35,618 bases of DNA from Erysipelotrichaceae bacterium. Lineage in GTDB: Bacteria > Bacillota_I > Bacilli_A > Erysipelotrichales > Erysipelotrichaceae. Below are positions 1,792-34,316 of the stretch, piece by piece (position 1 is the stretch's first letter; every line of letters starts with the position of its first letter). A program made the translations under genes and the position numbers. Under the pieces are notes generated by a model, which saw nothing but the letters and a program-made list of their open reading frames with translations, searched no databases and had not been told where the DNA came from. The stretch lies in assembly GCA_009773735.1 (NCBI GenBank), contig WSYG01000013.1, positions 1 to 35,618 of the forward strand. The letters run 5' to 3'.

Positions 1792-3333
1792 ATGAAATTC
1801 AACATGACTGAACAGCGGATGTTGGCCGTCAACATTGGCTCCAGATTCTTCTCCTATACCATCAATATCGGTGTAAACTTCTTTCTTACCCCCTATATCG
1901 TTACAGCTTTAGGAGCTGCGACCTATGGATATATGGGGCTCGGTCAGAATTTTATCTCGTATATAGATATCTTTACTTTTATGACAGCTGGAACATTATT
2001 TAGATTTGTTATGATTGCTCATACACAAAAGAAACAAGATGATGTAAATTCTTTCTATTCTAATTCTTTCTTTTCAACATTGATTTATTTGACGACGTTG
2101 ATCATTCCGGTATCGTATGCGATTTATCGCCTGCAAGATTTCATTAAGGTCAATCCTGTCATTGTCAATGACGTTAAAATATTGTTTGTTTTACTGCTGA
2201 TCAATTTTATATTTAATACATTCTTTTTGATTTTTAGAACAGGAACTCAAATGGTCAATAAGATATATTTGATTTCCATCCGTGACTTTTTTGCGGTTAT
2301 TCTAGAGACCATACTCTTATTGAGCTTGTATGTCTTCTTTGAACCTAAGATCTATTATTTAGGGATCTCAGCGGTTGTCATATCTGGCATGACTTTAATC
2401 TATGACTACTCCATGTTGAAGCGTTTTGTGCCTTATGTTGAAATCAAAATCAAACATATCCAAATGGATAAGTTAAAGGAATTGATTAGCACAGGTTTCT
2501 ATTACATGGTTAAACAGTTCAGTGGTGTCTTACTGGTTGGTTTGGATTTGTTGTTTGCCAATACTTTTATTTCTGAATTGGCAATGGGACAATTGGCGAT
2601 CGCAAAGATCTTACCTAAAGCCATGCAGAGTTTCTTGTCTTTAGCGACAGGTTCATTTATCGTTATCTTTACGAAATTATATGCCCAGAGAAGAATGGAA
2701 CATTTGGTTGTTCAAGTTAAACGCGGGATCAAAGTATTGGGAACAGTGACCATGTTGCCCAATGTCATTTTGATTGTTTATGGGCTTCCTTTTTATAAAC
2801 TATGGATACCTGCACAAGATGTACAATTAATCTATGTTTTGTCGGTTACCACAGCTTTGGTTTTGGTCATGAACGGTTTGATGTTTCCACTGAATTCAAT
2901 CTTTACAGTGACCAACCGATTGAAGGTGAGTGCACTAGTTGGTATGTTGTATGGAATAATTTCAGCAGTAACAACATTATTATTTCTAGTCTTCACTGAT
3001 TTTGGAATCTATGCCATCGCTGGAGTATCAACTTTCTATGGACTGGTATTGCCTTTTGTGTTTGTAATGCCTTACGGTGCTTATTGTTTAGAACTGCCAA
3101 AGTTTGCATTCTTTCCACTCATGTTTCGTAGTTTGCTTACTTTTGGAACCTTGGTTGCCTTTGGATTTGGAATGAGCATGATCATCATGCCTAACACCTG
3201 GATCGAGTTGATCATATCTTGTGGTATCTTGGGGTTAGCCAGTATTGCACTAGTCTATTTCGTTTATTTCACCCAAGATGAACGCAAACATATCTTGTCT
3301 ATCTTTGGGATCAGAAACAAGAAGATCAATTAA
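1792..3333 (+). CDS. Polysaccharide/oligosaccharide flippase-like membrane protein (MOP superfamily)
   Basis: The 513-residue product is hydrophobic along its length, with about 12 to 14 predicted membrane segments, which is the usual size for Wzx/MurJ-type flippases of the MOP exporter superfamily. The N-terminus (GSRFFSYTINIGVNFFLTPYIV followed by LGAATYGYMGLG) is the typical opening of polysaccharide-biosynthesis flippases: a first helix, then a conserved A-x-Y-G turn. Such proteins move lipid-linked sugar units across the cytoplasmic membrane. No glycosyltransferase or polymerase gene stands nearby, so the gene is solitary and its cargo cannot be told; teichoic acid or lipid II-like substrates are equally possible. 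It ends at its own terminator. The start is unusual because no ribosome binding site precedes it and the -10 box is only 8 nt away. Confidence 0.82.
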   Translation: MKFNMTEQRMLAVNIGSRFFSYTINIGVNFFLTPYIVTALGAATYGYMGLGQNFISYIDIFTFMTAGTLFRFVMIAHTQKKQDDVNSFYSNSFFSTLIYLTTLIIPVSYAIYRLQDFIKVNPVIVNDVKILFVLLLINFIFNTFFLIFRTGTQMVNKIYLISIRDFFAVILETILLLSLYVFFEPKIYYLGISAVVISGMTLIYDYSMLKRFVPYVEIKIKHIQMDKLKELISTGFYYMVKQFSGVLLVGLDLLFANTFISELAMGQLAIAKILPKAMQSFLSLATGSFIVIFTKLYAQRRMEHLVVQVKRGIKVLGTVTMLPNVILIVYGLPFYKLWIPAQDVQLIYVLSVTTALVLVMNGLMFPLNSIFTVTNRLKVSALVGMLYGIISAVTTLLFLVFTDFGIYAIAGVSTFYGLVLPFVFVMPYGAYCLELPKFAFFPLMFRSLLTFGTLVAFGFGMSMIIMPNTWIELIISCGILGLASIALVYFVYFTQDERKHILSIFGIRNKKIN

Positions 3334-3390: not shown

Positions 3391-3449
3391 TGATTGTGTC
3401 AGCTTGAGTGAAATAGGTTCAGTAAAAATGCAAAAATATGACACAATCA
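3391..3449. repeat. 11-bp perfect inverted repeat upstream of the methyltransferase-GH3 operon
   Basis: TGATTGTGTCA at 3391-3401 is repeated perfectly inverted as TGACACAATCA at 3439-3449, with 37 nt between the arms. No T run follows, so a terminator is unlikely. The core ATTGTGT occurs a third time at 3529-3535 inside the next promoter, which argues for a protein-binding site. Confidence 0.6.
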
Positions 3450-3524
3450 TCAGCGTTGTCTATGATGACTTAATAATCTCTTTTAAATTAAGCGTTTTTT
3501 GATGTAAATGTTATGAAAACCCTA

Positions 3525-3554: not shown

Positions 3555-3580
3555 AAAAATACACACTTTGAGGGGAACTC

Positions 3581-4150
3581 ATGAGTCCAATTTTGTTAGG
3601 TGTTTTTGCTTTCTTCATATTGACCATGTTTGACTTCAATAAGCTGAAAATGCTTCACCCTCTTTTAAACGGTCTATTCGCGGTAGGTGTCATCACCTTA
3701 ATCGTCGCAACTGCCCTTATCGTAACTGATAAAAAACCTTTGTTTACGTTTAATGCTCAACCCTTGTTTTGGATCATTTCCATACTTGGTTTGATAGAGA
3801 TGATCTATGCTTTATTCTTTGCTTTACCCTTTGAGAAGACCTATGTAAAAACAAAAGAAGCTTCCCAGATCGTGACCAGTGGCTTGTATGCGCTATGTCG
3901 TCATCCTGGAGTTTGGGGTTTCTTTCTAGCCACATTGTTTGGGGCTTTGGCTCTAGGGAATGGGACGTTGTTGGTTGCGGCTTTGGTTTGGACATTGATG
4001 GATATCCTACATGTATATATACAAGACAAAGTATTTTTCGTCAAGACACTACAAGGATACACTCGATATAAGGAGACGACCCCCTTTCTGTTTTTTGGAA
4101 CCAAAGAACTTAAGAGGACCTTCAGCACGCTGGGGAAAGAGAAAACATGA
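3581..4150 (+). CDS. Isoprenylcysteine carboxyl methyltransferase-like integral membrane protein
   Basis: This 189-residue membrane protein has about five hydrophobic helices. Its C-terminal half carries the pattern of the ICMT/phospholipid methyltransferase superfamily: GLYALCRHPGVWGF, with R-H-P at residues 107-109, and near the end a Y-x-x-Y-x-x-x-TPFLFFG segment. In that family these residues bind S-adenosylmethionine and the methyl acceptor at the membrane face. Bacterial members act on varied lipids or small hydrophobic acids and mostly have unknown substrates. It is the first gene of a three-gene operon, with GAGGGG placed before the ATG, and its stop overlaps the GH3 start by ATGA. 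The neighbour activates a carboxylic acid, so a methylated acyl product is conceivable but unproved. Confidence 0.75.
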   Translation: MSPILLGVFAFFILTMFDFNKLKMLHPLLNGLFAVGVITLIVATALIVTDKKPLFTFNAQPLFWIISILGLIEMIYALFFALPFEKTYVKTKEASQIVTSGLYALCRHPGVWGFFLATLFGALALGNGTLLVAALVWTLMDILHVYIQDKVFFVKTLQGYTRYKETTPFLFFGTKELKRTFSTLGKEKT

Positions 4151-5757
4151 ATTTTGACGAGTTGTTGAAAGCCAAAAAACATGATGAAATATGGGCTCGC
4201 TATTGCGGGTTCTTAGACTTGTCGGTCCAAGGATTCATGGACATCCAAAACAGTTTATTGATGGAACAAATCGGTCTTTTCAGTAAGAGTGAATTGGGTA
4301 AGAAAATCCTTAATGGTAAACATCCTAGAACCATCGCTGAATTCAGACAGATGTGTCCTTTAACGGAATATGATGATTATGCGGATATCTTATTGAGCAA
4401 AGATGAAAAAATGTTACCTGCTAAACCCGTGGTTTGGATCGAAACAACGTGGGAAGGCGGAAAAGCACCTGTTAAGGTTGCTCCGTATTCTGAAGGCATG
4501 GTAGAAAACTATAAAGATGCTTGTTTAGCATGCATCATTTTAGCTTCTAGTAAAGCCAGAGGTCAATTTGATCTACAAGTCGGCATGAATTTCTTAAACG
4601 GAATGGCCCCGTTACCTTATCTTACAGGTTTATTACCGGATGTTTTAGCAGGCGAGTATAGTGTTAATTTCTTTCCGCCAGCTAAAGAAGGCAATGCGAT
4701 GGGCTTTGGCCAACGTAATAAAGAAGGCTTTAAGATGGGCCTTCAACAGGGATTAGATCTATTCTATGGATTATCCAGCGTCATCGTTAGGATGAGCGAA
4801 CAATTCATCGAAGGTAATAAGGGTTCTTCGAAAGTTAAACTTGGAAATTTTAAACTGAGTCGTTTGGCGACCTACGCAAAAGCAAAAATGGTTGCTAAAG
4901 CACAAAATCGTCCTGTTTATCCAAAAGATGTTTTCAATCTCAAAGGTTTTGTTTGTATCGGCACAGATACCTTACATTTTAAAAAGAAAATTGAACAGTA
5001 TTGGGGCATTCGACCACTAGAAGTATTTGGTGGAACCGAAGTCACATGTATCGCCATTGAATCTTGGGTCAAAGATGGTTTGATTCTTTTACCTAATGTA
5101 TGCTTCTATGAATTTATCCCGATGAGTGAATTCTATAAGAATCTTGAGAATCCAAATCATCAGTGTAAGACGTATACTTTAGATGAAATTAAAGAAGATG
5201 AATACTATGAACTCGTTATCACCACCTTTAAAGGTGGAGCTTTTGCGCGTTATCGTGTCGGTGATATCTTTAAATACGAAATTGGATCAGCTAAAAATGA
5301 TGGGGTCGTTTTACCACATTTCAGATACATCGATCGCGTAGACCCAGTTATTGATTTGGCAGGATTTACACGCATCACAGAAGCTACGATTCGTGAAGCA
5401 ATTACCTTATCTCATTTACACATCGATGCTTGGTTTGCGCGCAAGTGTTATGACTCTCAAGCTCGTCCATACATCAATTTAACCTGTGAAATCAATCATC
5501 CTCAAAATGAGCCGGGAATCGACAATGCAGATTTGATCAAAGAACAACTCGAGATCTATTTTAAATACATCGACAGTGATTATGCCAATCTTTATAAAAT
5601 GTTAGGAATCGAACCGTTAAAAGTAACGATCATTCCTTCAGGGACTTTGGCTAAATATCAATCAACCATTGCTCATCCAATGCAAAAGGTCAATCCTAAC
5701 CATTTCGATGAAGTTGAAGTTATGAAACTTGCTTTCGGACAAGGATCACGCTCATGA
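4147..5757 (+). CDS. GH3 family acyl-adenylating protein (GH3 auxin-responsive promoter family)
   Basis: The 536-residue product matches the GH3 family, relatives of acyl-CoA ligases that in plants activate carboxylic acids with ATP and join them to amino acids. Visible landmarks are FGGTEV (about residues 294-299), where plant enzymes have a conserved S-S-E turn, and YELVITTFKGGAFARYRVGDIFK-like sequence around residues 350-376 with R-Y-R-V-G-D at 368-373, the hallmark of the family. The N-terminal phosphate-binding loop is altered: around residues 98-115 one reads TTWEGGKAPVKVAPYSE instead of the usual S-S-G-T-T-x-G-x-x-K. Whether it still uses ATP is therefore open. It overlaps both neighbours by ATGA. 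The substrate in bacteria is unknown. Confidence 0.85.
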   Translation: MNFDELLKAKKHDEIWARYCGFLDLSVQGFMDIQNSLLMEQIGLFSKSELGKKILNGKHPRTIAEFRQMCPLTEYDDYADILLSKDEKMLPAKPVVWIETTWEGGKAPVKVAPYSEGMVENYKDACLACIILASSKARGQFDLQVGMNFLNGMAPLPYLTGLLPDVLAGEYSVNFFPPAKEGNAMGFGQRNKEGFKMGLQQGLDLFYGLSSVIVRMSEQFIEGNKGSSKVKLGNFKLSRLATYAKAKMVAKAQNRPVYPKDVFNLKGFVCIGTDTLHFKKKIEQYWGIRPLEVFGGTEVTCIAIESWVKDGLILLPNVCFYEFIPMSEFYKNLENPNHQCKTYTLDEIKEDEYYELVITTFKGGAFARYRVGDIFKYEIGSAKNDGVVLPHFRYIDRVDPVIDLAGFTRITEATIREAITLSHLHIDAWFARKCYDSQARPYINLTCEINHPQNEPGIDNADLIKEQLEIYFKYIDSDYANLYKMLGIEPLKVTIIPSGTLAKYQSTIAHPMQKVNPNHFDEVEVMKLAFGQGSRS

Positions 5758-8318
5758 TGGACCAAATTTACGAGACCATCTATTGGGGTATCCCAATCCT
5801 ATCTTTGATTTTCTCATTCTCGATCTTCGTTATTTTAGCCCTGTCTAAAAAAGATTTGACCATCAAATCATTTATGTTGATGATGGCATCGATGACAGTA
5901 TGGTCTTTCTCGACTTTGATGATGAAACTTAACGTAACACCAGGTACTTTATTCTGGCAGCGTACGATGGTTGCAGCATTGATGATGATTCCGTATACAG
6001 GCTACATCTTCTTTACAGTGTTCATTCATATGAAACGTTATATCTCATTATTGTTGTGGGGAATATTGGAAGTCGCGATGCAAATCGTCAATATCCTGGG
6101 TTATACCACCATATCTGCGGTTATGGTCAAGATTCCAACTTCACCTTTTATTGAGTTGAATTATTCCTTGGGTCTTGGAGCCTATGTTTCCTATGTGTTG
6201 ATTTTTGCCTTACTACTCTCATGTTTGTTCTTAGCTCAACGTGAGTATCGCAAATCAAGATACATGGGTGGCTTAAAGAATGTCATGGTCGCGTTGTTTA
6301 TCATCTTCATCGGGATTGGGGCCAACTTGGTACCAGTCATCGGGAAATGGCCAATTGACTTCTTTGCGGGTAGTATTGCATCCTTATTCATCATGTATGC
6401 GATTTATCGCAACCGTGTCTTGGAATTAAAGTTTGTTATCACCAAGGCCGTTATCTTTACCATGTTGCTAACTGCGATCACCATCGGCAGTATTTTTGCT
6501 GTAAATGGTTTGATCACATTCTTCAACCAACTCAATACAGGACTCGACAACAATTTGTTCATCCTGATTGTAACCTTTGTATCCTTATTGATTTTCCAAC
6601 CTTTGTTTAAAGTTATTTATTCATTGGTCAACAACATATTCTATAAAGAAGAAAAAGTTAGAGAAGCACGAATTGCCAGCTTTACCCGTCAGATTGCCAA
6701 TAATTTGGAACTTAGCAAAATCATCGATAGTTTGATGAGTGCTGTGTCTGATGTCAGCGGCAATGCACGCAATTATCTATTCTTGAAAGATGATGTTAGT
6801 GGAAACTATTCTTTCTATGCTTCTTCACGCAAACTGGAAAGTGTTTCATTTGAAATCAATGTGACTCATCCATTCGTGTTGTGGTTCAAACAATATGATG
6901 AATTGATCAACGGGAAATCCTTGGATACCAATGCCTTCTTTAAGACCATGTGGGACCAAGATCGCAGAGCTTTAAATGGTATCTTATTTGAAACAGCTGT
7001 ACCATTAAAATCCAATGGCAAACTGATCGGTCTACTTCTGATGTGTCATAAGGATACGCATTCTATTCGTGATATCCCTCAAACCGATCAGATCAACATG
7101 GTTTGTATGACTGCTTCTATTGCGATCGCCAATGCGATCTTGTTTGAAAAAGCACGTGAAGAAGCCACTGTTGATGCCTTGACCAATACCTTTAACCATC
7201 GTTACTTCATGGATTACTTGATCGATGTGACCAGTCAATCTAAAACCAATAACGTTTCGTTGGCTCTGTGTGGAATTGACATGTTTAATGTATACAATGA
7301 TTTATATGGGCACTATGCTGGAGATACCGCATTGACCAAACTTGCTTCTAAGATTAAGCAAGTCGTTGGGGACAGTGGTTTGGTGTGTCGTTATGTCGGA
7401 GATATCTTCGCTATTGTTTTACCAAATACAGATACTAAGAAAGCCTATGATTTGATGGAAAAGATCCGTGTCGTCATTGAACAGACATCCGTATCTGCAC
7501 CAGATGAATCAGCTCGACAACTCACTGTAAGCTGTGGATTATGTACTTATCCATCCCAAGCAGCCGATGATAAATTGTTGCTGAAGAATGCTGGATTGGC
7601 TTTGATTGAAGCCAAGCGTGGCGGACGTAATAAGACTGTACTCTTTAATTCAGCCATCAATGAAGATTCTAAAGAAGGCATTGCCTTGGACGAGAATCAA
7701 TTGGCGACTGTATATGCCTTGACTGCCACCATCGATGCGAAAGACCATGTTACTTTCGGTCATTCACAACGTGTTGCGAAATATGCTACTGCAATTGCTG
7801 AAGCTTCGGGTGCTAAACCTTCGGAAGTTGAAATCATACGGTTGGCTTCATTGCTTCATGATATCGGTAAAATCGGTGTTCCTGAAAATGTATTGACCAA
7901 GACCAGTCGTTTGACCACAGAAGAATATGAAACCATGAAGAAGCATGTTGATCTATCGATCACCATCATCAAATATTTGCCTTCATTCTCAAAAGTTATT
8001 CCTAGCGTTATTGGTCACCATGAGCGTTGGGACGGCAAAGGCTATCCACGAAAGATTGCCGGCGAAAGTATTCCTTTCGGAGCCAGATGCATTGCCTTAG
8101 CTGATGCCTTCGATGCGATCACGTCTGATCGTCAATACAAGATGAACCAAGACATCGATTACGCACTTAATGAAATCAAACGTAATGCTGGGACTCAGTT
8201 TGATCCCGAGTTGACCACCATCTTCATTGAACTCATCACCAGTGGAAAGATCATTGTTGAACCGACGCGTACAAATATTTATACCATCGACAGTTTCCTC
8301 GAAAGACCCGTTAATTAA
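5754..8318 (+). CDS. Membrane GAF / degenerate GGDEF / HD-GYP protein (probable c-di-GMP phosphodiesterase)
   Basis: The 854-residue protein starts with about nine membrane helices (residues 1-295) resembling the 7TM region of some histidine kinases. A GAF-like region follows (about 310-460), then a GGDEF domain (from about 466), then an HD-GYP domain (about 660-850). The GGDEF signature is broken: the active loop reads CRYVGDIFAIVLP near residues 543-555, so V-G-D-I-F replaces G-G-D-E-F and cyclase activity is unlikely. The HD-GYP domain is intact, with LLHDIGKIGVPE (H-D near 701-702), GHHERWDGKGYP near 753-764, and AGTQFDP. Such domains hydrolyse cyclic di-GMP. The degenerate GGDEF may bind GTP as an allosteric signal. 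It overlaps the GH3 gene by ATGA and ends at a terminator. Confidence 0.93.
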   Translation: MMDQIYETIYWGIPILSLIFSFSIFVILALSKKDLTIKSFMLMMASMTVWSFSTLMMKLNVTPGTLFWQRTMVAALMMIPYTGYIFFTVFIHMKRYISLLLWGILEVAMQIVNILGYTTISAVMVKIPTSPFIELNYSLGLGAYVSYVLIFALLLSCLFLAQREYRKSRYMGGLKNVMVALFIIFIGIGANLVPVIGKWPIDFFAGSIASLFIMYAIYRNRVLELKFVITKAVIFTMLLTAITIGSIFAVNGLITFFNQLNTGLDNNLFILIVTFVSLLIFQPLFKVIYSLVNNIFYKEEKVREARIASFTRQIANNLELSKIIDSLMSAVSDVSGNARNYLFLKDDVSGNYSFYASSRKLESVSFEINVTHPFVLWFKQYDELINGKSLDTNAFFKTMWDQDRRALNGILFETAVPLKSNGKLIGLLLMCHKDTHSIRDIPQTDQINMVCMTASIAIANAILFEKAREEATVDALTNTFNHRYFMDYLIDVTSQSKTNNVSLALCGIDMFNVYNDLYGHYAGDTALTKLASKIKQVVGDSGLVCRYVGDIFAIVLPNTDTKKAYDLMEKIRVVIEQTSVSAPDESARQLTVSCGLCTYPSQAADDKLLLKNAGLALIEAKRGGRNKTVLFNSAINEDSKEGIALDENQLATVYALTATIDAKDHVTFGHSQRVAKYATAIAEASGAKPSEVEIIRLASLLHDIGKIGVPENVLTKTSRLTTEEYETMKKHVDLSITIIKYLPSFSKVIPSVIGHHERWDGKGYPRKIAGESIPFGARCIALADAFDAITSDRQYKMNQDIDYALNEIKRNAGTQFDPELTTIFIELITSGKIIVEPTRTNIYTIDSFLERPVN

Positions 8319-8329
8319 GACGGGTTTTT
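8306..8329 (+). terminator. Terminator overlapping the end of the HD-GYP gene
   Basis: ACCCGT at 8306-8311 pairs with ACGGGT at 8320-8325, followed by T residues to 8329. The stop codon lies within the loop. Confidence 0.75.
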
Positions 8330-8347
8330 CTTTGTATAAAAAAGGAA

Positions 8348-8381: not shown

Positions 8382-9677
8382 ATGAGCGTTATCGGGTGTT
8401 TTGTACTACCACATCCACCAATCATCATCCATGACATTGGTCAAGGAGAAGAACAGGCCATCATCAAAACCATCGAAAGTTTTCGGTTAATTGCGAAAAT
8501 GATTGGTCGTTTAAAGCCGGATACCATTATTTTAAGTTCACCTCACGCACCATTCTTAAAAGATCATTTCTTCATTTCATCGACCGATACTGATGAGGGC
8601 AATCTGGAAAAATTCGGAGCCAAACAACTTAGTATCAAAATGCGAAATGATACAGAGTTCATTCAAGCATTATGTATGATCAATAAAAATGTAATAAAGA
8701 CAAAAATCCCTGTTCCGCTCGATCACGGGGTCATAGTCCCCATGAGTTTTGTATATAAAGAAATCCAGAATTTTAAGTTTGTAAGATTGGGGCTTTCTGG
8801 ACTGGATCGACATGAACACATTCAACTGGGTCAACATATCAGAACCATCGCCCAAAACTTAAACAGACGTGTCGTTTTTATTGCGAGTGGAGATATGTCG
8901 CATCGCCTAAAAGCAGATGGACCATATGGTCTTCACCCCTCAGGACCAAGATTTGATCAAAGAATTACTGAACTCCTGAGTAAAGGGCATCTTGAAGCCT
9001 TGTCGCGCTTAGATCCTGATCTCTGTGATGAAGCTGCAGAATGTGGATATCGTTCTCTGCTGATCATGAGTGGTGTTTTAAAGGATCTAACGTTCTCATC
9101 AAAGCTTGAATCCTATGAAGATGTGTTTGGGGTTGGGTATGCTTGTGCTTCTTTTATTCCTCAAAACGATCCATATGTAGAACTAGCAAAGCAAACCATT
9201 CGAAGCATCATTCTCGATCAAGTTGAGTTGAAAGTACCAGAAAGTACTCCACAAGCTTTATTGAATACGAAAGCAGGAGTCTTTGTCTCCATCCACAAAC
9301 AAGGTCATCTGAGAGGTTGTATTGGAACCATCAGTCCAACCAAATCAAATGTTGCACAGGAAATTATAACTTGTGCGATTTGGGCATCGACCGAAGATTA
9401 TCGTTTTAGTCCCATCAGAGCAGATGAACTCGATCAACTTGAAGTTCATGTTGATGTATTGGGACAAGCTGAAAATATTGATGGTCCTCATCAACTTGAT
9501 CCAAAACGATATGGTGTCATCGTTTCTAAAGGGCATCGTAAAGGTTTGTTGCTGCCAGACCTTGACGGGGTAGATTCTGTTCAACAACAAATATCGATTG
9601 CCCTACAAAAAGGTGGAATTTCAGATCACGAAGATTATCTTCTGCAACGATTTGAGGTGATCCGTCATCATGATTGA
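8382..9677 (+). CDS. amrA: AmmeMemoRadiSam system protein: LigB-type dioxygenase-like domain fused to AMMECR1 domain
   Basis: This 431-residue fusion has two parts. Residues 1 to about 260 form a LigB/Memo-type domain with VLPHPPII (His11), LSSPHAPF (His55) and ASGDMSHRL, positions that in class III extradiol dioxygenases bind iron. Residues about 265-431 form an AMMECR1 domain with its hallmark LRGCIGT and the following DYRFSPI. In many bacteria and archaea the two domains are separate genes found next to a radical SAM gene. Here they are fused, and the radical SAM gene follows with an 8-nt overlap. The set is widely known as AmmeMemoRadiSam; I know of no agreed reaction. Genome databases call this fusion protein A. 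The family assignment is firm, the function unknown. Confidence 0.9.
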   Translation: MSVIGCFVLPHPPIIIHDIGQGEEQAIIKTIESFRLIAKMIGRLKPDTIILSSPHAPFLKDHFFISSTDTDEGNLEKFGAKQLSIKMRNDTEFIQALCMINKNVIKTKIPVPLDHGVIVPMSFVYKEIQNFKFVRLGLSGLDRHEHIQLGQHIRTIAQNLNRRVVFIASGDMSHRLKADGPYGLHPSGPRFDQRITELLSKGHLEALSRLDPDLCDEAAECGYRSLLIMSGVLKDLTFSSKLESYEDVFGVGYACASFIPQNDPYVELAKQTIRSIILDQVELKVPESTPQALLNTKAGVFVSIHKQGHLRGCIGTISPTKSNVAQEIITCAIWASTEDYRFSPIRADELDQLEVHVDVLGQAENIDGPHQLDPKRYGVIVSKGHRKGLLLPDLDGVDSVQQQISIALQKGGISDHEDYLLQRFEVIRHHD

Positions 9678-10494
9678 GTGTAAAGTTTGTTTTCATCATT
9701 GTCGTTTGGAAGAAGGACAGATTGGTTTTTGTCAGGGACGTAAAAATGAGTTAGGCAAGAACATCCCATTAAACTATGGAAAAGTAAGTTCCATTGCTCT
9801 AGAACCCATAGAAAAGAAACCACTTTTAAGATTCCATCCCGGGTCTAAAATCTTATCGATTGGCTCTGCCGGATGTAATCTCAAATGTCCGTTTTGTCAG
9901 AATCATACCATTTCAATGGCAAGACCAGATGAGCTACAAATGCAGACTTTAATGCCAAAAGATGTTGTAGAGTTAGCCATCAAAATGAAAAGCCAAGGTA
10001 ATATTGGGATTGCTTTTACATACAACGAACCACTCATCAATTATGAATATGTTCTTGAGACTTCGAAACTTGCAAAAGCTGAAGGATTAAAAACAGTTCT
10101 AGTAACCAATGGAACCGTAGAATCTGAGATATTAAATCAATTGGTACCTTTCATTGATGCATATAATATTGATCTAAAAGGATTTAATTCAGCATTCTAT
10201 CAGCAACTATGTGGCGATTTTGAGAATGTCAGAACCAACATAAAACTTGCCCAAAAGTTTGCTCATGTAGAAATCACAACGCTCATCATACCTGGCAAGA
10301 ATGATAAATATGAAGATATGGAAGCTGAGGCTAAATGGCTTGCCGAAATAGATAAAGATATACCTTTGCACATCACACGTTTCTTTCCAAATCATTTGTG
10401 GAGTGATCTTAAGCCAACACCTTTAGCGACGATGGTGCGACTAAAAGCCATCGCAGATGTTTATTTGAATCATGTTTATCTAGGGAATGTATAA
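9670..10494 (+). CDS. amrS: AmmeMemoRadiSam system radical SAM enzyme
   Basis: The 274-residue product carries the radical SAM cluster motif GCNLKCPFCQN, with cysteines at 69, 73 and 76 binding the [4Fe-4S] cluster that cleaves S-adenosylmethionine. A second cysteine set near the N-terminus (Cys4, Cys7, Cys11, Cys21) is typical of this subfamily, which resembles pyruvate formate-lyase activating enzymes but is shorter in context. AFTYNEPLINYEYV and VTNGTV fit the TIM-barrel strands. It begins inside the end of the upstream gene (8-nt overlap), so the two proteins are translationally coupled and presumably act together. A glycyl-radical enzyme partner is not present in the window, so simple activase function has no support here. 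Confidence 0.93.
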   Translation: MIECKVCFHHCRLEEGQIGFCQGRKNELGKNIPLNYGKVSSIALEPIEKKPLLRFHPGSKILSIGSAGCNLKCPFCQNHTISMARPDELQMQTLMPKDVVELAIKMKSQGNIGIAFTYNEPLINYEYVLETSKLAKAEGLKTVLVTNGTVESEILNQLVPFIDAYNIDLKGFNSAFYQQLCGDFENVRTNIKLAQKFAHVEITTLIIPGKNDKYEDMEAEAKWLAEIDKDIPLHITRFFPNHLWSDLKPTPLATMVRLKAIADVYLNHVYLGNV

Positions 10495-23456: not shown

Positions 23457-23511
23457 TTGACAAGGCAATATCTATCCCTTATATTGAATATGTAAGGTGA
23501 ATCACTATTCA
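23457..23511 (+). promoter_or_regulatory. Promoter of the thiolase-Liv-CoA-transferase operon with operator-like repeat
   Basis: TTGACA at 23457-23462 and TATATT at 23480-23485 at 17-nt spacing make the strongest promoter in the window. Just after the expected start site lies TGAAT-CACT-ATTCA (23498-23511), a perfect 5-bp inverted repeat that resembles half-sites of TetR-type fatty-acid regulators. The TetR gene at the end of the operon is a candidate binder. Confidence 0.7.
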
Positions 23512-23543
23512 TGTTTAAGATGATCACCATTTGGGGAGAAACC

Positions 23544-24752
23544 ATGTCAAAAGTATACGTCGTAAGTGCTAAAAGAACTGCACTTGGATCTTTCTTAGGG
23601 GCACTTAAATCTGTACCTGCTGGTGAATTAGGCGCAAGCGTCATCAAAGCTGTTTTATCTGAAACTAAAATCGATCCAAGTGTGATCGATGAGGTCATCA
23701 TGGGCAACATTCTGCCTGCTGGTCAAGGCCAAGGTGTTGCGCGACAAGCATCACTTAAAGCGGGTGTTCCTGTTACTGTGCCTGCTTATGGGGTCAATAT
23801 GGTTTGTGGTAGCGGTATGAAGAGCGTTATGTTAGGTTATACCTCTATCAAAGCTGGTTTATATCATGTGGTTGTTACCGGTGGTGTTGAAAACATGTCC
23901 TCTGCGCCATACTTAGTTCCTAAAGAAGTGCGAACAGGAACAAAAATGGGTCCACTTACAATGAATGATCATATGCTTTCAGATGCGTTGTGGGATGCTT
24001 TTGATGGTCAACATATGGGTGTTACTGCAGAAAACATCGCACAAAAATATAACATATCCAGAGAAACTCAAGAGGCATTTGCGTTTGCTTCACAATCTAA
24101 AGCCATCAAAGCTGTTGATTCTGGTGTATTTAAAAATGAAATCGTTCCTTTAACGATCAAAGTCGGTAAAGAAGAAATCGTATTTGAAAATGATGAGTAT
24201 CCAAATCGTAAAACAGATATCGCTAAATTGTCGAGTTTAAGACCTGCCTTCGTTAAAGATGGTTCCGTTACAGCCGGAACATCCTCTGGTATCAATGATG
24301 GCGCAAGTGTAATCCTTCTGGCTTCTGAAGAAGCCATCGAGAAATATTCATTAATCCCTCTTGTTGAATTGGTGGGGATTGGACAAGGCGGTGTTGAGCC
24401 ATCGCTTATGGGTTTAGGTCCAACCCCAGCGATTCGACAAGCATTGAAACATGCGGGATTAAAGATCGATCAGATCGAACTCTTTGAACTTAATGAAGCT
24501 TTTGCGGCTCAATCTTTAGGGGTAGTCAGAGAATTGGCTCAAGAATATAACGTTACAGAAGAAAGCATCTTAAATAAAACCAATCCTAATGGAGGTGCCA
24601 TTGCTTTAGGACATCCAGTAGGAGCCAGCGGTAATCGTATCATTGTGACTTTGGTCCATGAAATGTTAAGAAAAGATTTAAATTATGGATTGGCTTCCTT
24701 ATGTATCGGAGGCGGTATGGGTACCGCTGTCATCTTAAAGAAAGTGAACTAA
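23544..24752 (+). CDS. Acetyl-CoA acetyltransferase (thiolase)
   Basis: The start is ATG 23544, where GGGGAGA lies just upstream; an earlier ATG at 23511 in the same frame has no ribosome binding site and falls in the operator-like repeat. The 402-residue product is a complete thiolase of the biosynthetic (thlA/phaA) kind. VCGSGMKSV has the acyl-accepting Cys88, GHPVGASGNR has His357, and CIGGGMGTA has Cys387, the base that activates the second acyl-CoA. It condenses two acetyl-CoA to acetoacetyl-CoA or runs in reverse to cleave 3-oxoacyl-CoA. It opens a long operon next to an SDR reductase, a pairing typical of hydroxybutyryl-CoA metabolism. Direction here is unknown. Confidence 0.95.
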   Translation: MSKVYVVSAKRTALGSFLGALKSVPAGELGASVIKAVLSETKIDPSVIDEVIMGNILPAGQGQGVARQASLKAGVPVTVPAYGVNMVCGSGMKSVMLGYTSIKAGLYHVVVTGGVENMSSAPYLVPKEVRTGTKMGPLTMNDHMLSDALWDAFDGQHMGVTAENIAQKYNISRETQEAFAFASQSKAIKAVDSGVFKNEIVPLTIKVGKEEIVFENDEYPNRKTDIAKLSSLRPAFVKDGSVTAGTSSGINDGASVILLASEEAIEKYSLIPLVELVGIGQGGVEPSLMGLGPTPAIRQALKHAGLKIDQIELFELNEAFAAQSLGVVRELAQEYNVTEESILNKTNPNGGAIALGHPVGASGNRIIVTLVHEMLRKDLNYGLASLCIGGGMGTAVILKKVN

Positions 24753-24764
24753 AGAGGAAAAAAT

Positions 24765-25484
24765 ATGAGACTTGAAGGGAAAGTAGCCATTATTACAGGC
24801 GGTGCCAAAGGCTTAGGACAAGCCATGGCAGAACGATTTGTTGAAGAAGGCGCGACTGTTATAGCAGCAGATATGGGAGATTTAAGTTACAGTCATCCTA
24901 AAGTAGAAGGTTATAAGTTAAATGTTGCGGATTCAACAGCATGTAAAGTGTTCTTTGATGAAGTTGTCGCAAAATATGGAAAAATCGATATTTTGGTCAA
25001 CAATGCTGGAATCACACGCGATACCACAACGCGTAAAATGACAGATGAACAGTGGGATTCAGTCATCAATGTTAATTTAAAGGGTGTCTTCAATTTAACG
25101 CGTTATGTTGGACCTTTTATGCAAGATCAAAAAAGTGGATCCATCATCAATATCTCATCGATCGTAGGAGTTTATGGTAACTATGGTCAAGCCAATTATG
25201 CAGCTTCAAAAGCAGGCATTATTGGATTAACTAAGACATGGTCCCGTGAATTTGCAGCCAAAGGCGGAAACGTTAGAGTCAATGCGATCGCACCAGGTTA
25301 TATTATGACGGATATCTTAAAAACAGTACCACAAGATTTATTGGATAAATTCGCATCGATGACCATGATCGGTCGTTTAGGTCAACCCATAGAAATCGCT
25401 AATGTTGCCTTATTCTTGGCATCAGAAGAGGCATCTTACGTTACAGGACATGTACTAGAAGCCAATGGTGGAATGAGACTATGA
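24765..25484 (+). CDS. SDR family 3-oxoacyl-CoA/ACP reductase (FabG/PhaB-like)
   Basis: The 239-residue product is a classical short-chain dehydrogenase. TGGAKGLGQ at residues 11-19 is the nucleotide loop, NNAGITRDTTTRKM is the FabG/PhaB-type segment, and YAASKAG holds the catalytic Tyr145 and Lys149 with the Ser of ISSIVG. The R-D-x-T-x-x-x-M form of the second motif points to acetoacetyl-CoA or acyl-ACP reduction to the (R)-3-hydroxy compound with NAD(P)H. The gene follows the thiolase by 12 nt, with AGAGGA before its ATG, and overlaps the next gene by 4 nt (ATGA). With the thiolase it could make or use 3-hydroxybutyryl-CoA. FabG of fatty-acid synthesis is less likely in this setting. Confidence 0.9.
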   Translation: MRLEGKVAIITGGAKGLGQAMAERFVEEGATVIAADMGDLSYSHPKVEGYKLNVADSTACKVFFDEVVAKYGKIDILVNNAGITRDTTTRKMTDEQWDSVINVNLKGVFNLTRYVGPFMQDQKSGSIINISSIVGVYGNYGQANYAASKAGIIGLTKTWSREFAAKGGNVRVNAIAPGYIMTDILKTVPQDLLDKFASMTMIGRLGQPIEIANVALFLASEEASYVTGHVLEANGGMRL

Positions 25485-26374
25485 AACAATACGTAGTTAA
25501 AACAGTCCAGATACCATCTGGCGAAACCATTGCTTATCGTGAATGTGGTCAAGGAAATGATGTTGTCGTATTAGTACATGGTAATATGAGCTCATCGGTT
25601 CATTTCCAAACTACCATGGAAAAACTTGAAAATGATTTTAAAGTATATGCGGTTGATTTACGTGGTTTTGGGGATAGTTCTTATCTTCAAGAACTCAACA
25701 GTCTACGTGATTTCGCTTTGGATATCGAAGAATGGGCTAGAGTCACTGGATTAAATCAATTTACTTTAGTCGGTTGGTCAACTGGTGGAGGCGTTGTCCT
25801 TGAGATGGCTGCTGATTTACCAAATCAAGTTAAAAAAGTTATCTTATTAGACTCCGTTGGGATCAAAGGCTATCCGATGTTTAAAAAGGGACCTGATTAT
25901 CAGCCCATTTTAACGCAACCCATTACCACCAAAGAAGACATTAAAGTTGACTTGGTTCAAGTTGTACCGATCTTGATGGCTTACGCCAACAAAGATAAAG
26001 CAATGCTGAAAGCCATTTGGAATGCTGTGATCTACAATAAAGTACAACCCAATGAATCTGATTATGATCTCTATCTAGATGCGATGATCAAACAGCGCAA
26101 TTTAGTCGATGTCGATTATAGTTTGGTACATTTCAACATGACATATGATGTTAGTTTAGCAGGTCAAGGAAGTGGTCGAATCGATCTCATCAAATGTCCT
26201 GTAGTTATTCTTCATGGGACCACTGATATGGTCGTGCCATTTGCTTATGCACTAGAAATGAAAACCGCTTTTGGGGATCGTGCAACATTGATCCCACTTG
26301 AAGGCATTGGTCATTCATGTGTAACCGATGATTTAGAATTATTTGTATCTACTTTGAAAGCAAACTTGAATTGA
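25481..26374 (+). CDS. Alpha/beta hydrolase
   Basis: The 297-residue product is an alpha/beta-fold hydrolase. VLVHGNMSSSVHF is the oxyanion-hole strand, VGWSTGGGVV has the nucleophile Ser100, and GIGHSCVTDD holds the histidine; HGTTDMVVPF has the likely Asp. It has no signal peptide, so it acts in the cytoplasm. The nucleophile is serine, not the cysteine of PHA synthases, so polymer synthesis is excluded. Esters, thioesters or oligomers of hydroxy acids are plausible substrates in this operon, but the family is too broad to choose. It overlaps the reductase by ATGA and the KAS III-like gene starts one base after its stop. A second hydrolase of the same fold stands at 33482. Confidence 0.88.
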   Translation: MKQYVVKTVQIPSGETIAYRECGQGNDVVVLVHGNMSSSVHFQTTMEKLENDFKVYAVDLRGFGDSSYLQELNSLRDFALDIEEWARVTGLNQFTLVGWSTGGGVVLEMAADLPNQVKKVILLDSVGIKGYPMFKKGPDYQPILTQPITTKEDIKVDLVQVVPILMAYANKDKAMLKAIWNAVIYNKVQPNESDYDLYLDAMIKQRNLVDVDYSLVHFNMTYDVSLAGQGSGRIDLIKCPVVILHGTTDMVVPFAYALEMKTAFGDRATLIPLEGIGHSCVTDDLELFVSTLKANLN

Positions 26375-26375
26375 T

Positions 26376-27398
26376 ATGAAAGAAAATATTGGAATACTAG
26401 GACTGGGGATCTATATCCCAAAAACAGTCATGACTGCAGCTGAAATCGCTGAAAAAACCAATGGGGTATGGACTGAAGCTGCCATTCAAGAAAAACTAGG
26501 CATTCTTCAAAAGCCCATTCCGGGACCACTTGATGGAACTCAAGAAATGGGTGCTTTAGCCTCCATTGAAGCCATTAAAAATGCCAATATCGATCCTAAA
26601 GAGATCGATGTTATCTTATGCTTTGGTGAAGAATGGAAAGAATTTCCTTTAACAACTTCAGCTTTGTATATCCAAGATCGTATAGGAGCGACCAATGCCT
26701 GGGGCGTCGATGTTCAAAATCGCTGCTGTACTTCTGTTACTGCTATGAAAATGGCGAAAGATATGTTGATTGCGGATGAAAGTATTTCCACAGTCTTGAT
26801 TTGTGGTGGATATCGTAATGGTGATTTTGTAGACTATACCGATAAAAATATGTCGATGATGTATAACCTTGCGGCTGGTGGGGGCGCTTTGATTTTGCGC
26901 AAAGGCATGGATCGTAATCTATTATTAGGCAGCCATTTGATTTCAGATGGTTCTTTAGCACGAACAGCCGGCGTTGAAATCGGTGGGACAGCCAATCCAA
27001 TCACCTGTGAGAATTTAAATGTTGCGTTTAAGTCCTTAAGACTCATGGATCCAGAACGCATGAAGAATCGTCTCAATGAAGTCTCAGGTGCTAATTGGAT
27101 GACATGCATCGATAAAGCTCTGGAAAAATCCAAACTAACCAAGCAAGACATTACTTATCTTGATATCTTACACATCAAACGATCAGGTCATTTAGGCATG
27201 TTGCATGACCTAGGACTTAATGAAGATCAAACGGTTTACTTAGAAAACTATGGTCATATGGGTCAAGTCGATCAAATTCTATCCTTGGTTCTTGGTTTAG
27301 AATCAGGAAAAGTTAAAGATGGAACCATTGTATGTATGATTGCGGCTGGGATCGGATACGTCTGGGCAGCCAATATCGTGAAGTGGGGCCAAGCTTAA
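26376..27398 (+). CDS. KAS III (FabH)-like thiolase-superfamily enzyme, divergent active site
   Basis: The 340-residue product has the length and order of 3-oxoacyl-ACP synthase III. GILGLGIYIPKTVMTAAEIA opens it, DVQNRCCTSVTAM carries the nucleophile at Cys117 (with a second Cys118), DILHIKRSGH carries His266, and AAGIGYVWAANIVKW closes it. The third active residue differs: FabH has Asn in Y-G-N-T-S-A-A-S, but here one reads NYGHMGQVDQ with His294. The usual C-A-G-F after the nucleophile is C-C-T-S. It is therefore unlikely to be the housekeeping FabH; it may make a C-C bond with another acceptor or transfer an acyl group. It is coupled to the ABC permease gene (TAATG). The ribosome binding site is weak. 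Confidence 0.85.
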   Translation: MKENIGILGLGIYIPKTVMTAAEIAEKTNGVWTEAAIQEKLGILQKPIPGPLDGTQEMGALASIEAIKNANIDPKEIDVILCFGEEWKEFPLTTSALYIQDRIGATNAWGVDVQNRCCTSVTAMKMAKDMLIADESISTVLICGGYRNGDFVDYTDKNMSMMYNLAAGGGALILRKGMDRNLLLGSHLISDGSLARTAGVEIGGTANPITCENLNVAFKSLRLMDPERMKNRLNEVSGANWMTCIDKALEKSKLTKQDITYLDILHIKRSGHLGMLHDLGLNEDQTVYLENYGHMGQVDQILSLVLGLESGKVKDGTIVCMIAAGIGYVWAANIVKWGQA

Positions 27399-28273
27399 TG
27401 TCGACGTTTATGCAATTATTTTTGAGAAGCTTGGAAACAGGAAGCATCTATGCGCTTGCCGCATTAGGGATCATCATTGTTTTTAGGACCTCAAACATCA
27501 CTCATTTTGCGCAAGGTGCCCTAGGTACATTCAACACCTTTGTCGTGGCTATTTTATTCACCAATTATCGTTTTCCTTTGTGGGCTGCGATCTTGGCAGG
27601 AATCTTGTCTGCTTTTGTTATGGGGTTGATGGTTGATTATTTCATCATCCGTCGGGCAAAGAAAATTGCCCCGATCGCTAAACAGATCATTACCTTAGGG
27701 ATGGTCCTTGTTATTGTAGGGGTCACTGCCATCTCTTTTGGTTTGGATCCTTTTATCTTACCTAAGCTTTTCCCAAAAGGCGATGTCATGATCGCTGGGG
27801 CATCCATTTCAATCAATGGTCTCTTCAACATAGGATTTGGTTTGGTTCTTATGGGTATCTTATTTGTCATCTTACAGAAAACTAAATGGGGATTAGCCGT
27901 TAGGACAACCGCATCCAATGAGTTTACAGCGCGTTTGATGGGTGTTCCTACTCGCAATGTCACCATGATCGCATGGGCTTTAGCAGGTGTCTTAGGTGTC
28001 TTGGCTGGGGTTATGTATGCCCCGCTTAATCGAGTAGATGCTGGGATGTTGGATTATGTTCAAATCAGTGCTTTGGTGGCCTGTGTACTAGGAGGCTTTC
28101 AAAGTTTCCATGGACCAATCATTGGTGCTTATATCCTTGCGATCGCAAAGAATCTGATGAGTTTTTACTGGTCAGATGTTTGGGCTGAACAATTGGTCTT
28201 GATTGCGGTATTGATCTTTATCATCTTTAGACCTAATGGGATCATTGGAAGAAAGATCGTTAAGAAGGTCTAA
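27398..28273 (+). CDS. livH: Liv-type ABC transporter permease (LivH family)
   Basis: I start at ATG 27398, which overlaps the previous stop as TAATG and has GGGG upstream; the frame is open from 27332 but that stretch lies inside the KAS III-like gene. The 291-residue product is a LivH-family permease with about eight helices, opening with FLRSLETGSIYALAALGIII and the typical ITHFAQGALG near residue 45, and ending in IFRPNGIIGRK. With LivM it forms the channel of a high-affinity importer driven by LivG and LivF. The family imports branched-chain amino acids, but relatives carry urea, aromatic acids, amides and short carboxylates. Its place inside an acyl-CoA operon argues for a carboxylate-like cargo. 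Confidence 0.92.
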   Translation: MSTFMQLFLRSLETGSIYALAALGIIIVFRTSNITHFAQGALGTFNTFVVAILFTNYRFPLWAAILAGILSAFVMGLMVDYFIIRRAKKIAPIAKQIITLGMVLVIVGVTAISFGLDPFILPKLFPKGDVMIAGASISINGLFNIGFGLVLMGILFVILQKTKWGLAVRTTASNEFTARLMGVPTRNVTMIAWALAGVLGVLAGVMYAPLNRVDAGMLDYVQISALVACVLGGFQSFHGPIIGAYILAIAKNLMSFYWSDVWAEQLVLIAVLIFIIFRPNGIIGRKIVKKV

Positions 28274-28275
28274 TC

Positions 28276-29319
28276 ATGATAAAAAAATTATCATCATATA
28301 AAAAGGGGCAACCCCTCATTAAGAATGCCTATATGTCTTACGCTTTGTTTGGATTGTTTCTTGCCTTGATGCCTTTGTTTGGATATTTAGGGATCATTAA
28401 AAGTAGTTATGTTACGATCATAGCCTCAGTTATCTATTATTCAATCGCAGCTTTAGGTTTAAATGTATTGTTGGGTTGGACTGGTTTGATTTCTCTGGGA
28501 ACGGCTGGATTTATGGGTTTGGCTGCCTATATATCAGCCTACATTACCTACAATATGCATTTGCCCTTTGAGATTGCGCTGGTCACTGCGGTTGTGGTAT
28601 CCACTTTACTGGGGGTACTGGTAGGGTACATCTCACTAAGAATTGAAGGAATTTACCTAGCCATCGCAACTTTAGCAGTCGCAGAGATCTTAAGAAAAAC
28701 ATTTGAAGTCTTTGATCCTTTTACAGGGGGTGCCAGTGGTAAACCCATCTCATATCCAACTCTCTTCTTTTTCTATAAATATTCAAGAGCCGATCTTAAA
28801 ATCTTTGAAACTTTACTGTATTTGATTTTGGTGCTCTTCTTGATCGCTGTGATGATCTTGGTTCACAACCTGATGAAAGGTCAAGTAGGGCGTGCTTTAA
28901 ATGCCCTGCGTGGCTCAGAAGCAGCTGCCCAAGCCATGGGCATCAATCTTTTGAAGTATCGCTTGTTTGCCTTTGGATTTGCCAGTGCAACCGCATCTCT
29001 TGCGGGTGTATTGTATGTTCACTATAACCGTTATACCAATCCTGATCGATGGTTATTAGCTCTTTCTTTGAATCTGGTGGCTGCGATCATCATCGGTGGT
29101 GTGCGCAATATCTACGGGACCATCTTAGGGGTGTTTATCGTTGTGGCAACCAAAGATATGGTGTTGGCTCAGATTCCGTATTTCGCCAATAACCCTAACT
29201 TTGCGTTGATGTTTAATGGCATCTTGATCATCTTGATCATCCTGTATTATCCTTATGGACTCATCAGGATTGGAGCTGATCTTAAGAAGTTGGTTGTAAA
29301 GATCAAGGAGAAATTCTAA
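28276..29319 (+). CDS. livM: Liv-type ABC transporter permease (LivM family)
   Basis: The 347-residue protein is the second membrane subunit. It has about nine to ten helices; LGLNVLLGWTGLISLGTAGFMG is the conserved LivM region, and GRALNALRGSEAAAQAMGIN is the cytoplasmic loop that couples to the ATPases (the E-x-A-A-x-x-x-G-I-N pattern). A short basic tail (LKKLVVKIKEKF) ends it. It lies 2 nt after livH and 2 nt before livG, with GAAGG as ribosome binding site. It has an N-terminal basic stretch (MIKKLSSYKKGQ) before the first helix. The substrate is not shown by the sequence. Confidence 0.93.
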   Translation: MIKKLSSYKKGQPLIKNAYMSYALFGLFLALMPLFGYLGIIKSSYVTIIASVIYYSIAALGLNVLLGWTGLISLGTAGFMGLAAYISAYITYNMHLPFEIALVTAVVVSTLLGVLVGYISLRIEGIYLAIATLAVAEILRKTFEVFDPFTGGASGKPISYPTLFFFYKYSRADLKIFETLLYLILVLFLIAVMILVHNLMKGQVGRALNALRGSEAAAQAMGINLLKYRLFAFGFASATASLAGVLYVHYNRYTNPDRWLLALSLNLVAAIIIGGVRNIYGTILGVFIVVATKDMVLAQIPYFANNPNFALMFNGILIILIILYYPYGLIRIGADLKKLVVKIKEKF

Positions 29320-29321
29320 TC

Positions 29322-30125
29322 ATGGATGAACTACAAAACAAAACTGTCTTGAGTATCCAGGATCTCTCCATCTCATTTGGAGGCATCAAAGCTGTTGATC
29401 ACTTGTCGTTTGATGTCGACGAAGGTGAAATCTTTGGGCTTATTGGTCCCAATGGGGCAGGTAAAACAACTGTATTCAACTGTATTACACAATTCTACAA
29501 ACCCAATCATGGCTCGATCCGATTTAAATCCAAACAAGGAAAAACAATCGAATTGACCACACATAAAGTTCATGAAGTCATTGGTTATGGTTTGGTTCGT
29601 ACCTTCCAGAATGTTGAACTGATCAAAGAGTTATCAATTCTAGATAATGTGTTGATTGGTGGACACATTGATTTTAAAACCAGTTTCATAGGTCAAGCAT
29701 TTAATACAAAAAAAAGCAAAGCAGAAGAAGCATTGTATCGTCAAGAAGCCATAGAAATTCTCACATTCTTAGGCATCGCTGATCGTAAAGATTGGCTGGT
29801 CTATGGACAACCTTACGGAATCTTAAAGAAAATCGAATTGGCTCGTTCATTGATGTGTAAACCAAAGCTGATCATCTTGGATGAACCGGCTGCAGGTCTC
29901 AATGATTTAGAGACCTTAGACTTTGCGAAAGTCATACGCCAAATACGTCAGCGTTATAATTGTTCAATCTTATTGGTTGAACATGACATGCGCTTGGTCA
30001 TGGATGTCTGTGATCGAATCTGCGCCATCAACTTTGGGAAATTCTTAGCCGTTGGTACCCCTGGTCAAATCCAAAAGAGTCCTACTGTTCAAGCTGCTTA
30101 TCTTGGAACGGAGAATCCCGCATGA
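29322..30125 (+). CDS. livG: Liv-type ABC transporter ATP-binding protein (LivG family)
   Basis: The 267-residue ATPase has Walker A GLIGPNGAGKTT, the Q-loop ARTFQ-like VRTFQNVELIKE, the LivG form of the signature QPYGILKKIELARSL, Walker B LIILDEPAAGLN and the H-loop LLVEHDMRLVMD. The R-T-F-Q-N and A-A-G-L-N segments are typical of LivG rather than LivF. It powers transport as a heterodimer with LivF. The gene overlaps livF by ATGA, keeping the two subunits in equal amount. An ordinary member, complete in every motif. Confidence 0.95.
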   Translation: MDELQNKTVLSIQDLSISFGGIKAVDHLSFDVDEGEIFGLIGPNGAGKTTVFNCITQFYKPNHGSIRFKSKQGKTIELTTHKVHEVIGYGLVRTFQNVELIKELSILDNVLIGGHIDFKTSFIGQAFNTKKSKAEEALYRQEAIEILTFLGIADRKDWLVYGQPYGILKKIELARSLMCKPKLIILDEPAAGLNDLETLDFAKVIRQIRQRYNCSILLVEHDMRLVMDVCDRICAINFGKFLAVGTPGQIQKSPTVQAAYLGTENPA

Positions 30126-30850
30126 AAACCGTTGCCTTAAAAATATCGAATCTAAAAGTACGCTATGGAGCCATTGAAGCCATCAAGGGCATCGATTTGT
30201 ATGCCAATGAAGGAACCATCGTGGCACTACTGGGAGCCAACGGTGCCGGTAAATCAACCACCTTAAGAACCATTTCGGGTTTGGTTGAAGCTAGTTCTGG
30301 TACGATTGAATTCTTTGGGAAACCCATTCACAAGATGGATGTTGAACAGATTGCACGTTTAGGGATCGCTCAAAGTCCAGAAGGACGCCAGGTCTTCAAA
30401 GATCTGACCGTCGAAGAGAATTTACGTGTTGGTGCTTTTACCGTAAAAAACAGAAAGCAGATCAAAGCTAATTTCGAACGAGTCTATGGATATTTCCCAG
30501 TCTTACAAGAACGTAAACATCAAGTAGCCTCAACCTTATCTGGTGGGGAACAACAAATGTTGGCCATCGGCAGAGCATTGATGAGCAGTCCAAGAGTCTT
30601 ATTGCTTGATGAACCATCACTGGGTCTAGCTCCCCTTATCGTTCAAAGCATCATGAAAATCGTCAAAGAAATCAGTGAAGAAGGTACGACCATCATCATC
30701 GTTGAACAAAACGCGGCCCAAACCCTGAAAATCGCAGATTATGCATATGTATTAGAAGTCGGCAACCTAACGATGCAGGGTCCAGCCTCAGAATTAATTC
30801 ATGATCCGAAATTAATTCAAGCATATTTGGGATCACATAAACAAGGCTAA
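30122..30850 (+). CDS. livF: Liv-type ABC transporter ATP-binding protein (LivF family)
   Basis: The 242-residue ATPase has Walker A LLGANGAGKSTTLR, the LivF-type loop IAQSPEGRQVF, signature TLSGGEQQMLAIGRAL, Walker B VLLLDEPSLGLAP and the H-position segment IIIVEQNAAQTLKIAD, in which Q-N replaces the usual H-D as is normal in LivF. The start overlaps livG by 4 nt. It dimerises with LivG under the two permeases. The substrate-binding lipoprotein gene follows 32 nt later with its own strong ribosome binding site, which lets it be made in excess. Confidence 0.96.
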   Translation: MKTVALKISNLKVRYGAIEAIKGIDLYANEGTIVALLGANGAGKSTTLRTISGLVEASSGTIEFFGKPIHKMDVEQIARLGIAQSPEGRQVFKDLTVEENLRVGAFTVKNRKQIKANFERVYGYFPVLQERKHQVASTLSGGEQQMLAIGRALMSSPRVLLLDEPSLGLAPLIVQSIMKIVKEISEEGTTIIIVEQNAAQTLKIADYAYVLEVGNLTMQGPASELIHDPKLIQAYLGSHKQG

Positions 30851-30882
30851 TAATGCTCAAACATTATTATAAGGAGGAAAGA

Positions 30883-32118: not shown

Positions 32119-32132
32119 GTGTTGTATCATAA

Positions 32133-32157: not shown

Positions 32158-32177
32158 ATTTCTCTCTAGGAGGCCCT

Positions 32178-34301: not shown

Positions 34302-34316
34302 AAATATGGAAAATCT

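Follow-up and report, generated by a model that had tools for sequence, protein, structure and literature searches.

A conserved three-gene cassette joins a GH3-like protein and a membrane methyltransferase to a c-di-GMP phosphodiesterase in Firmicutes

Sequence comparisons indicate that three genes encoding a membrane methyltransferase, a GH3-like protein and a cyclic di-GMP (c-di-GMP) phosphodiesterase are one unit that has evolved together across diverse Firmicutes. At each of the 46 loci examined, the GH3 gene is flanked by the methyltransferase gene immediately 5' and the phosphodiesterase gene immediately 3', all on one strand. Because gene order is kept in relatives, a functional link of the two enzymes to the phosphodiesterase is well supported, and adjacency by chance is rejected. 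The initial annotation of this DNA had let the proposed link stand or fall with retention of the order in relatives, and the order held without exception.

The cassette was recognized in a window of 35,618 nucleotides (the whole stretch of DNA that was analysed, from an Erysipelotrichaceae bacterium), where three open reading frames on the + strand span positions 3581-8318: gene 1 (3581..4150, 189 aa), gene 2 (4147..5757, 536 aa) and gene 3 (5754..8318, 854 aa). Both junctions have the ATGA overlap that had been read there initially, at 4147-4150 and 5754-5757. A Shine-Dalgarno-like GAGGGG, read in the sequence (3570..3580, +), directly precedes the gene 1 start codon, and a terminator-like hairpin (8301..8330, +; 12 pairs with a T-rich tail) overlaps the gene 3 stop codon. 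Because of the overlaps and this terminator, the three genes are probably co-expressed. Sites resembling promoters, one of them upstream at 3438-3466, did not exceed chance expectation, and control by a riboswitch was rejected, given that Rfam yielded no match in the window and a match of chance level upstream.

The gene after it, at 8382, is part of another set that is already known, AmmeMemoRadiSam. Directly 3' of the cassette terminator, this pair (8382-10494) consists of a LigB/MEMO-like and AMMECR1 fusion followed by a radical SAM protein (TIGR04337, 249 bits); it does not occur at the matching position in genome G001, and in G006 that position holds no more than a gene related to the first of the pair. 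On the other side, positions 1792-3333 encode a multi-pass membrane protein of 513 aa, which resembles a flippase on inspection, has no Pfam match at 0.01 and is kept upstream of the cassette within the genus. In sister species, a 337-339 aa ORF that does not occur in the window (L014:4285-5304, L015:4317-5330) lies between this gene and the cassette. The window also holds, at 23511-34913, genes for a thiolase, an SDR, two alpha/beta hydrolases, a KAS III-like protein, parts of a branched-chain amino acid ABC transporter, a CoA transferase and a TetR protein. In genus g64 (L069 and L073), the cassette is closely followed on its 3' side by genes related to this TetR and thiolase, and in L069 SDR and KAS III genes come next. 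Such thiolase/SDR/KAS III-type neighbours might supply acyl substrate, or their presence may be coincidental.

Conservation was assessed by searching the GH3 protein against relatives, samples at family, class and phylum level, a sample of Clostridia, and contigs from genomes and viruses, and by fetching the flanks of GH3 loci and comparing their ORFs. The 46 loci (34, plus 11 more, six of them from the Clostridia sample, plus one IMG/VR contig) include many close relatives, and about 29 lineages were hand-picked for the flank test. Two methyltransferase genes overlooked by the ORF picker were recovered with tblastn; the phosphodiesterase is shortened in two loci (L013 and L056) and split in L131, and L062 has an apparent frame break in the GH3 gene. 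GH3 subfamily members with the full cassette diverge to as little as 42% identity, and their hosts are Erysipelotrichia-type Bacilli and Clostridia.

The unit comprises exactly three genes. Clustering of the flanks across the roughly 29 lineages revealed no fourth recurring gene besides common families and one local synteny block, and a larger gene cluster is rejected in that the flanks recur only as ABC ATPases, c-di-GMP proteins, MerR-like regulators and, in one family, that synteny block. Where a GH3 gene of the same family or of Clostridia lies outside the cassette (L074-L078, L141-L149), it has no methyltransferase or phosphodiesterase partner, and the two kinds of GH3 gene coexist in some Clostridial genomes. 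A defence system was also considered and rejected: PADLOC gave no specific match for the cassette, only weak HD-domain matches.

Gene 2 is a member of the GH3 family with a GH3/ANL fold, as assigned by profile and fold comparison. Pfam detects GH3_M at 52.7 bits and the GH3 N-terminal model at 20.8 bits, slightly below its cut-off of 23.6, and both models, GH3_M and GH3, have matches in each of the 18 aligned members at E values up to 0.1. A search of structures with the gene 2 profile returns plant GH3 enzymes (best E 6.1e-10), and GH3 and PaaK-type ANL enzymes are the first fold matches of AlphaFold models that are themselves of low confidence (pLDDT 49 and 57, owing to the few sequences supplied for prediction), with the phosphate loop in a low-confidence part. 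Plant GH3 enzymes join acids to amino acids. With these acyl acid amido synthetases (e.g., JAR1 and GH3.12) gene 2 shares the family, by profile and fold, and recognizable motifs II and III, but identity in structural alignments is about 15% and the canonical motif I is missing.

In place of the canonical TSGTTGxxK, gene 2 has a rebuilt phosphate loop, T100-T-W-E-G-G-x4-K110-x-A-P113 (4444..4485, +). Motif I reads TTW[EKR] in all 46 loci (loop TTW[E/K]GG....K), a conserved lysine follows the loop tryptophan by eight residues in nearly all cassette GH3s, and the canonical form, (S/T)SGT(S/T)xGxxK, is absent from the cassette GH3s of the 46 loci, whereas GH3s outside the cassette carry TSGTTGxxK or similar. 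(A non-GH3 protein, L135:354-2108, was left out of the rebuilt GH3 alignment, and the loop alignment moved by one residue.) The motif I serine S115 is essential in the bacterial GH3 protein OlsH (PMC12493201); its placement on the cassette loop is ambiguous, as joint alignments set it against residue 103 (E, or K/R in one clade) and another alignment sets it against T101. The remaining motifs are recognizable: motif II (F-G-G-T-E, residues 294-298; 5026..5040, +) is [FY][GA]GTE in 45 of 45 proteins, motif III (GGAFARYRVGD, residues 363-373; 5233..5265, +) is GG[AV]FxRY in 45 of 45, and a hinge-like motif, DRVDPVIDLAGFTRI (residues 396-410; 5332..5376, +), recurs in 44 of 45, L136 having VD for ID, such that the pattern DR.....ID.AGFTRI is almost invariant among cassette GH3s.

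Because the phosphate loop is rebuilt in every cassette member, adenylation by gene 2 cannot be assumed. Of the initial description as a 'GH3 acyl-adenylating enzyme', the first half is borne out by the fold and by motifs II and III; the adenylating chemistry is only predicted, motif I having been rebuilt throughout. Nor does an ordinary GH3 gene suffice as a full description, since motif I differs and canonical GH3s occur without the partners. A protein of this kind might have ceased to adenylate altogether, and might instead bind a ligand or nucleotide and sense an acyl molecule or the ATP/AMP state, regulating the phosphodiesterase or the methyltransferase by contact. The non-canonical loop of every member agrees with such a role, and the 1:1:1 pairing of the genes fits a regulatory complex equally well; however, motif II GTE, motif III RY, the P-loop lysine and the hinge-like motif are all conserved, and the GH3 gene is under strong purifying selection. 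Between the window and G001 it is the most constrained of the three genes (dN 0.058, dS 1.35), with a dN/dS of about 0.04; the phosphodiesterase has 0.05 and the methyltransferase 0.16, all of them rough values given that dS is near saturation. Moreover, a replacement loop that is nearly invariant and has become fixed in every lineage suggests selection, not decay. We therefore regard a non-adenylating regulator as unlikely.

Gene 1 is a multi-pass membrane methyltransferase of the ICMT/PEMT superfamily, to which it is assigned as a membrane protein (four hydrophobic segments at a simple threshold) with a family profile and the superfamily RHPx motif, R107-H108-P109-G110 (3899..3910, +), of which R, H and G are invariant across the cassette family. 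In Pfam it scores 24.6 bits against ICMT (cut-off 24) and 22.7 bits against PEMT (cut-off 25), and among 20 homologues PEMT matches 16 and ICMT nine. Its profile finds the solved ICMT of Methanosarcina acetivorans (4A2N) at an E value of 1.7e-5, a distant match. The RHPx motif and a C-terminal Y..Y pattern are common to gene 1, 4A2N and the PEMT family, but 4A2N has an E-E pair before the C-terminal helix where most cassette methyltransferases read Q-D or Q-E. Against the NCBIfam model isopcys_mtase, which represents ICMT proper (prenylcysteine carboxyl methylation), gene 1 reaches 21 bits, the equivalog cut-off being 160. An earlier reading as an ICMT-like carboxyl methyltransferase thus keeps its superfamily and loses its specificity: because the phospholipid-methyltransferase model fits at least as well as ICMT, O-, N- and S-methylation would each be compatible with these matches.

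Association of a GH3 protein with a methyltransferase has a described precedent. OlsH makes N-acyl ornithine, from an operon that includes a methyltransferase, and its homologues are reported mainly in Bacteroidota, Pseudomonadota and Planctomycetota (PMC12493201). The OlsH/OlsG/OlsI operon of Singulisphaera acidiphila resembles the cassette in pairing a GH3-like protein of similar size (OlsH, 526 aa), whose divergent GH3 motifs are still recognizable, with an operon methyltransferase. The two differ in motif I, which in OlsH has the canonical form TSGTTQGATK and in the cassette is the TTW[E/K]GG loop, and in the remaining gene, in that the OlsH operon encodes an acyltransferase of the alpha/beta hydrolase kind and, from its description, no c-di-GMP protein, whereas the cassette has a 7TM phosphodiesterase. 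With this motif I, and with neither a hydrolase nor any other fourth gene recurring in the flanks, the cassette does not represent an OlsH-type ornithine lipid pathway. The precedent of the OlsH operon for structural lipids (PMC12493201) nevertheless raises the possibility of a unit for membrane-lipid homeostasis, in which genes 1 and 2 would produce a structural amino lipid or alter a head group, and gene 3 would couple the state of the membrane to c-di-GMP-controlled surface behaviour, with no diffusible signal. Matches of gene 1 to phospholipid methyltransferases in 16 of 20 members point the same way. We consider this improbable to a similar degree as a non-adenylating regulator: an acyltransferase partner such as OlsI is missing and no fourth gene takes its place, and a dedicated 7TM receptor would seem to exceed the needs of an ordinary lipid operon.

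Gene 3 has the architecture 7TM-GAF-GGDEF-HD-GYP, as judged from Pfam, hydrophobic segments and homologues. Its N-terminal membrane region has seven hydrophobic segments (5787..6596, +), recognized as HisKA_7TM in 11 of 19 homologues (best 1.5e-14), and is followed by a GAF domain (6711..7115, +) that is weak in the window protein (E 0.017) and matched as GAF_2 in 15 of 19 homologues. The GGDEF domain (7164..7634, +; 117 bits) retains the nucleotide-side NDLYGHYAGD, but its signature is degenerate (VGDIF, residues 548-552) and so lacks the GG(D/E)EF of an active diguanylate cyclase; the canonical signature, as GGEEF, occurs in 14 homologues, all in one clade. The HD-GYP domain (7731..8213, +) matches HD_5 at 125.7 bits, and its LLHDIGKIG and HHERWDGKGYP are intact, the HD and HHE..GYP motifs and the HD_5 profile together marking gene 3 as an HD-GYP phosphodiesterase. 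Because no complete homologue has lost the HD-GYP motifs and the GGDEF signature is canonical in one clade only, the conserved output of gene 3 is predicted to be hydrolysis of c-di-GMP, and the degenerate GGDEF domain is perhaps a GTP-binding regulator. The protein has much company in the window's genome, which in a search by protein family contains 19 GGDEF, 14 HD_5 and three EAL matches, about 18 GGDEF and 13 HD_5 of them outside the cassette; in Mobilibacterium, where EAL proteins are present, the cassette protein is the sole HD_5 match. Flagella are rejected as a general target, because flagellin is missing from the window's genome and from most cassette-bearing relatives searched, and present in one cassette-free relative.

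Distribution of the cassette is patchy and its members occur together. The GH3 subfamily occurs in seven of the eight genomes of the window's genus, in about 30 of 196 genomes of the family (four weak matches to other GH3s set aside) and in about 7 of 341 genomes of the Clostridia sample. Across 116 family genomes, the methyltransferase profile scores 184-232 bits only in the 16 with the GH3 gene (one of the 16 matches being a 70-bit fragment at a contig end), and its best match in genomes without that gene is 52 bits. All three gene trees have the same three main clades, and their distances are correlated pairwise (rho 0.84, 0.86 and 0.88; Mantel p 0.001). Members from Clostridia sit in two of these clades, adjoining Bacilli members, which fits block transfer or deep duplication. 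At the end of the IMG/VR contig (L150:3986-10214), the cassette follows soon after an endolysin-like phage gene, which would make it either phage cargo or host DNA flanking a prophage. Carriage on plasmids was looked for, gave no match and is rejected. That the genes are merely transcribed and inherited together, e.g., by co-transfer as a mobile unit, with genes 1 and 2 forming a small pathway without regulatory effect on gene 3, would suit the patchy distribution, the two Clostridial clades beside Bacilli and the cassette beside a prophage end, but it is quite improbable, in that members should then be lost or swapped over time, whereas all 46 loci keep the three genes in order, the trees agree and no plasmid copy was found.

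Because the enzyme pair and the membrane receptor are invariant, the simplest account has the receptor reading what the enzymes produce. We hold with moderate confidence that the cassette is a self-contained, co-inherited module in which the two enzymes make an acyl-type product and the gene 3 receptor reads it. Gene 2, if an active enzyme, would activate or conjugate a carboxylic or acyl substrate, its likeliest reaction being to join a fatty or aryl acid to an amine; gene 1, acting in the same pathway, would methylate the product of gene 2 or its precursor at the membrane; and gene 3 would serve as a one-component receptor, sensing through its 7TM or GAF region, in which the product sets phosphodiesterase activity and hence the local level of c-di-GMP. 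Its response to an acyl-type membrane molecule would be to lower c-di-GMP. The acyl nature of the signal, the substrate and the direction of signalling are what we infer; the rebuilt GH3 motif I, the position of gene 3 as one of many c-di-GMP proteins and the low confidence of the structure models count against this reading.

For a receptor that reads an enzyme product, RpfF/RpfR is a precedent in logic; the chemistry has one in OlsH and the methyltransferase encoded beside it. The phosphodiesterase RpfR acts on c-di-GMP and responds with higher activity to the fatty acid that its partner RpfF makes (PMC4698668), and both RpfF/RpfR (BDSF) and RpfF/RpfC/RpfG (DSF), in which RpfG uses HD-GYP, resemble the cassette in combining an acyl-signal enzyme with a c-di-GMP phosphodiesterase as receptor or effector (PMC4698668, PMC8846402). 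The components differ: RpfF is an enoyl-CoA hydratase and the cassette enzymes are a GH3 protein and a methyltransferase; RpfR senses through PAS and hydrolyses through EAL, and the DSF route employs the sensor kinase RpfC, whereas the cassette receptor is a one-component 7TM-GAF-GGDEF-HD-GYP protein. In that the three genes contain no RpfF enoyl-CoA hydratase and no RpfR or RpfC domains, the likeness to DSF-type systems is one of logic only. A more specific proposal, which we advance tentatively and think rather less probable than the module itself, is a convergent one-operon signalling system of Firmicutes, in which a GH3 protein with a remodelled loop and a dedicated methyltransferase would yield a methylated acyl conjugate that the 7TM HD-GYP receptor reads directly, lowering c-di-GMP, the whole being a counterpart both of the DSF systems and of the hormone conjugation carried out by plant GH3 enzymes. 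A search of the open-access literature, which is not proof of absence, returned no paper describing a GH3/methyltransferase/phosphodiesterase cassette.

To our knowledge, few chemical inputs are known for c-di-GMP phosphodiesterases, and a cassette with its own enzymes beside its own receptor is a direct route to a ligand. A branch of the GH3 family that remodelled its nucleotide loop and afterwards kept the new form unchanged is likewise a clean test of how far GH3 chemistry can change. The cassette is present in two named strains, Aminicella lysinilytica DSM 28287 and Mobilibacterium timonense, which opens it to study beyond metagenome bins. Because the three genes are found together and have evolved as a unit, these results suggest that the cassette is an undescribed system for making, and responding to, a small lipid-like molecule.
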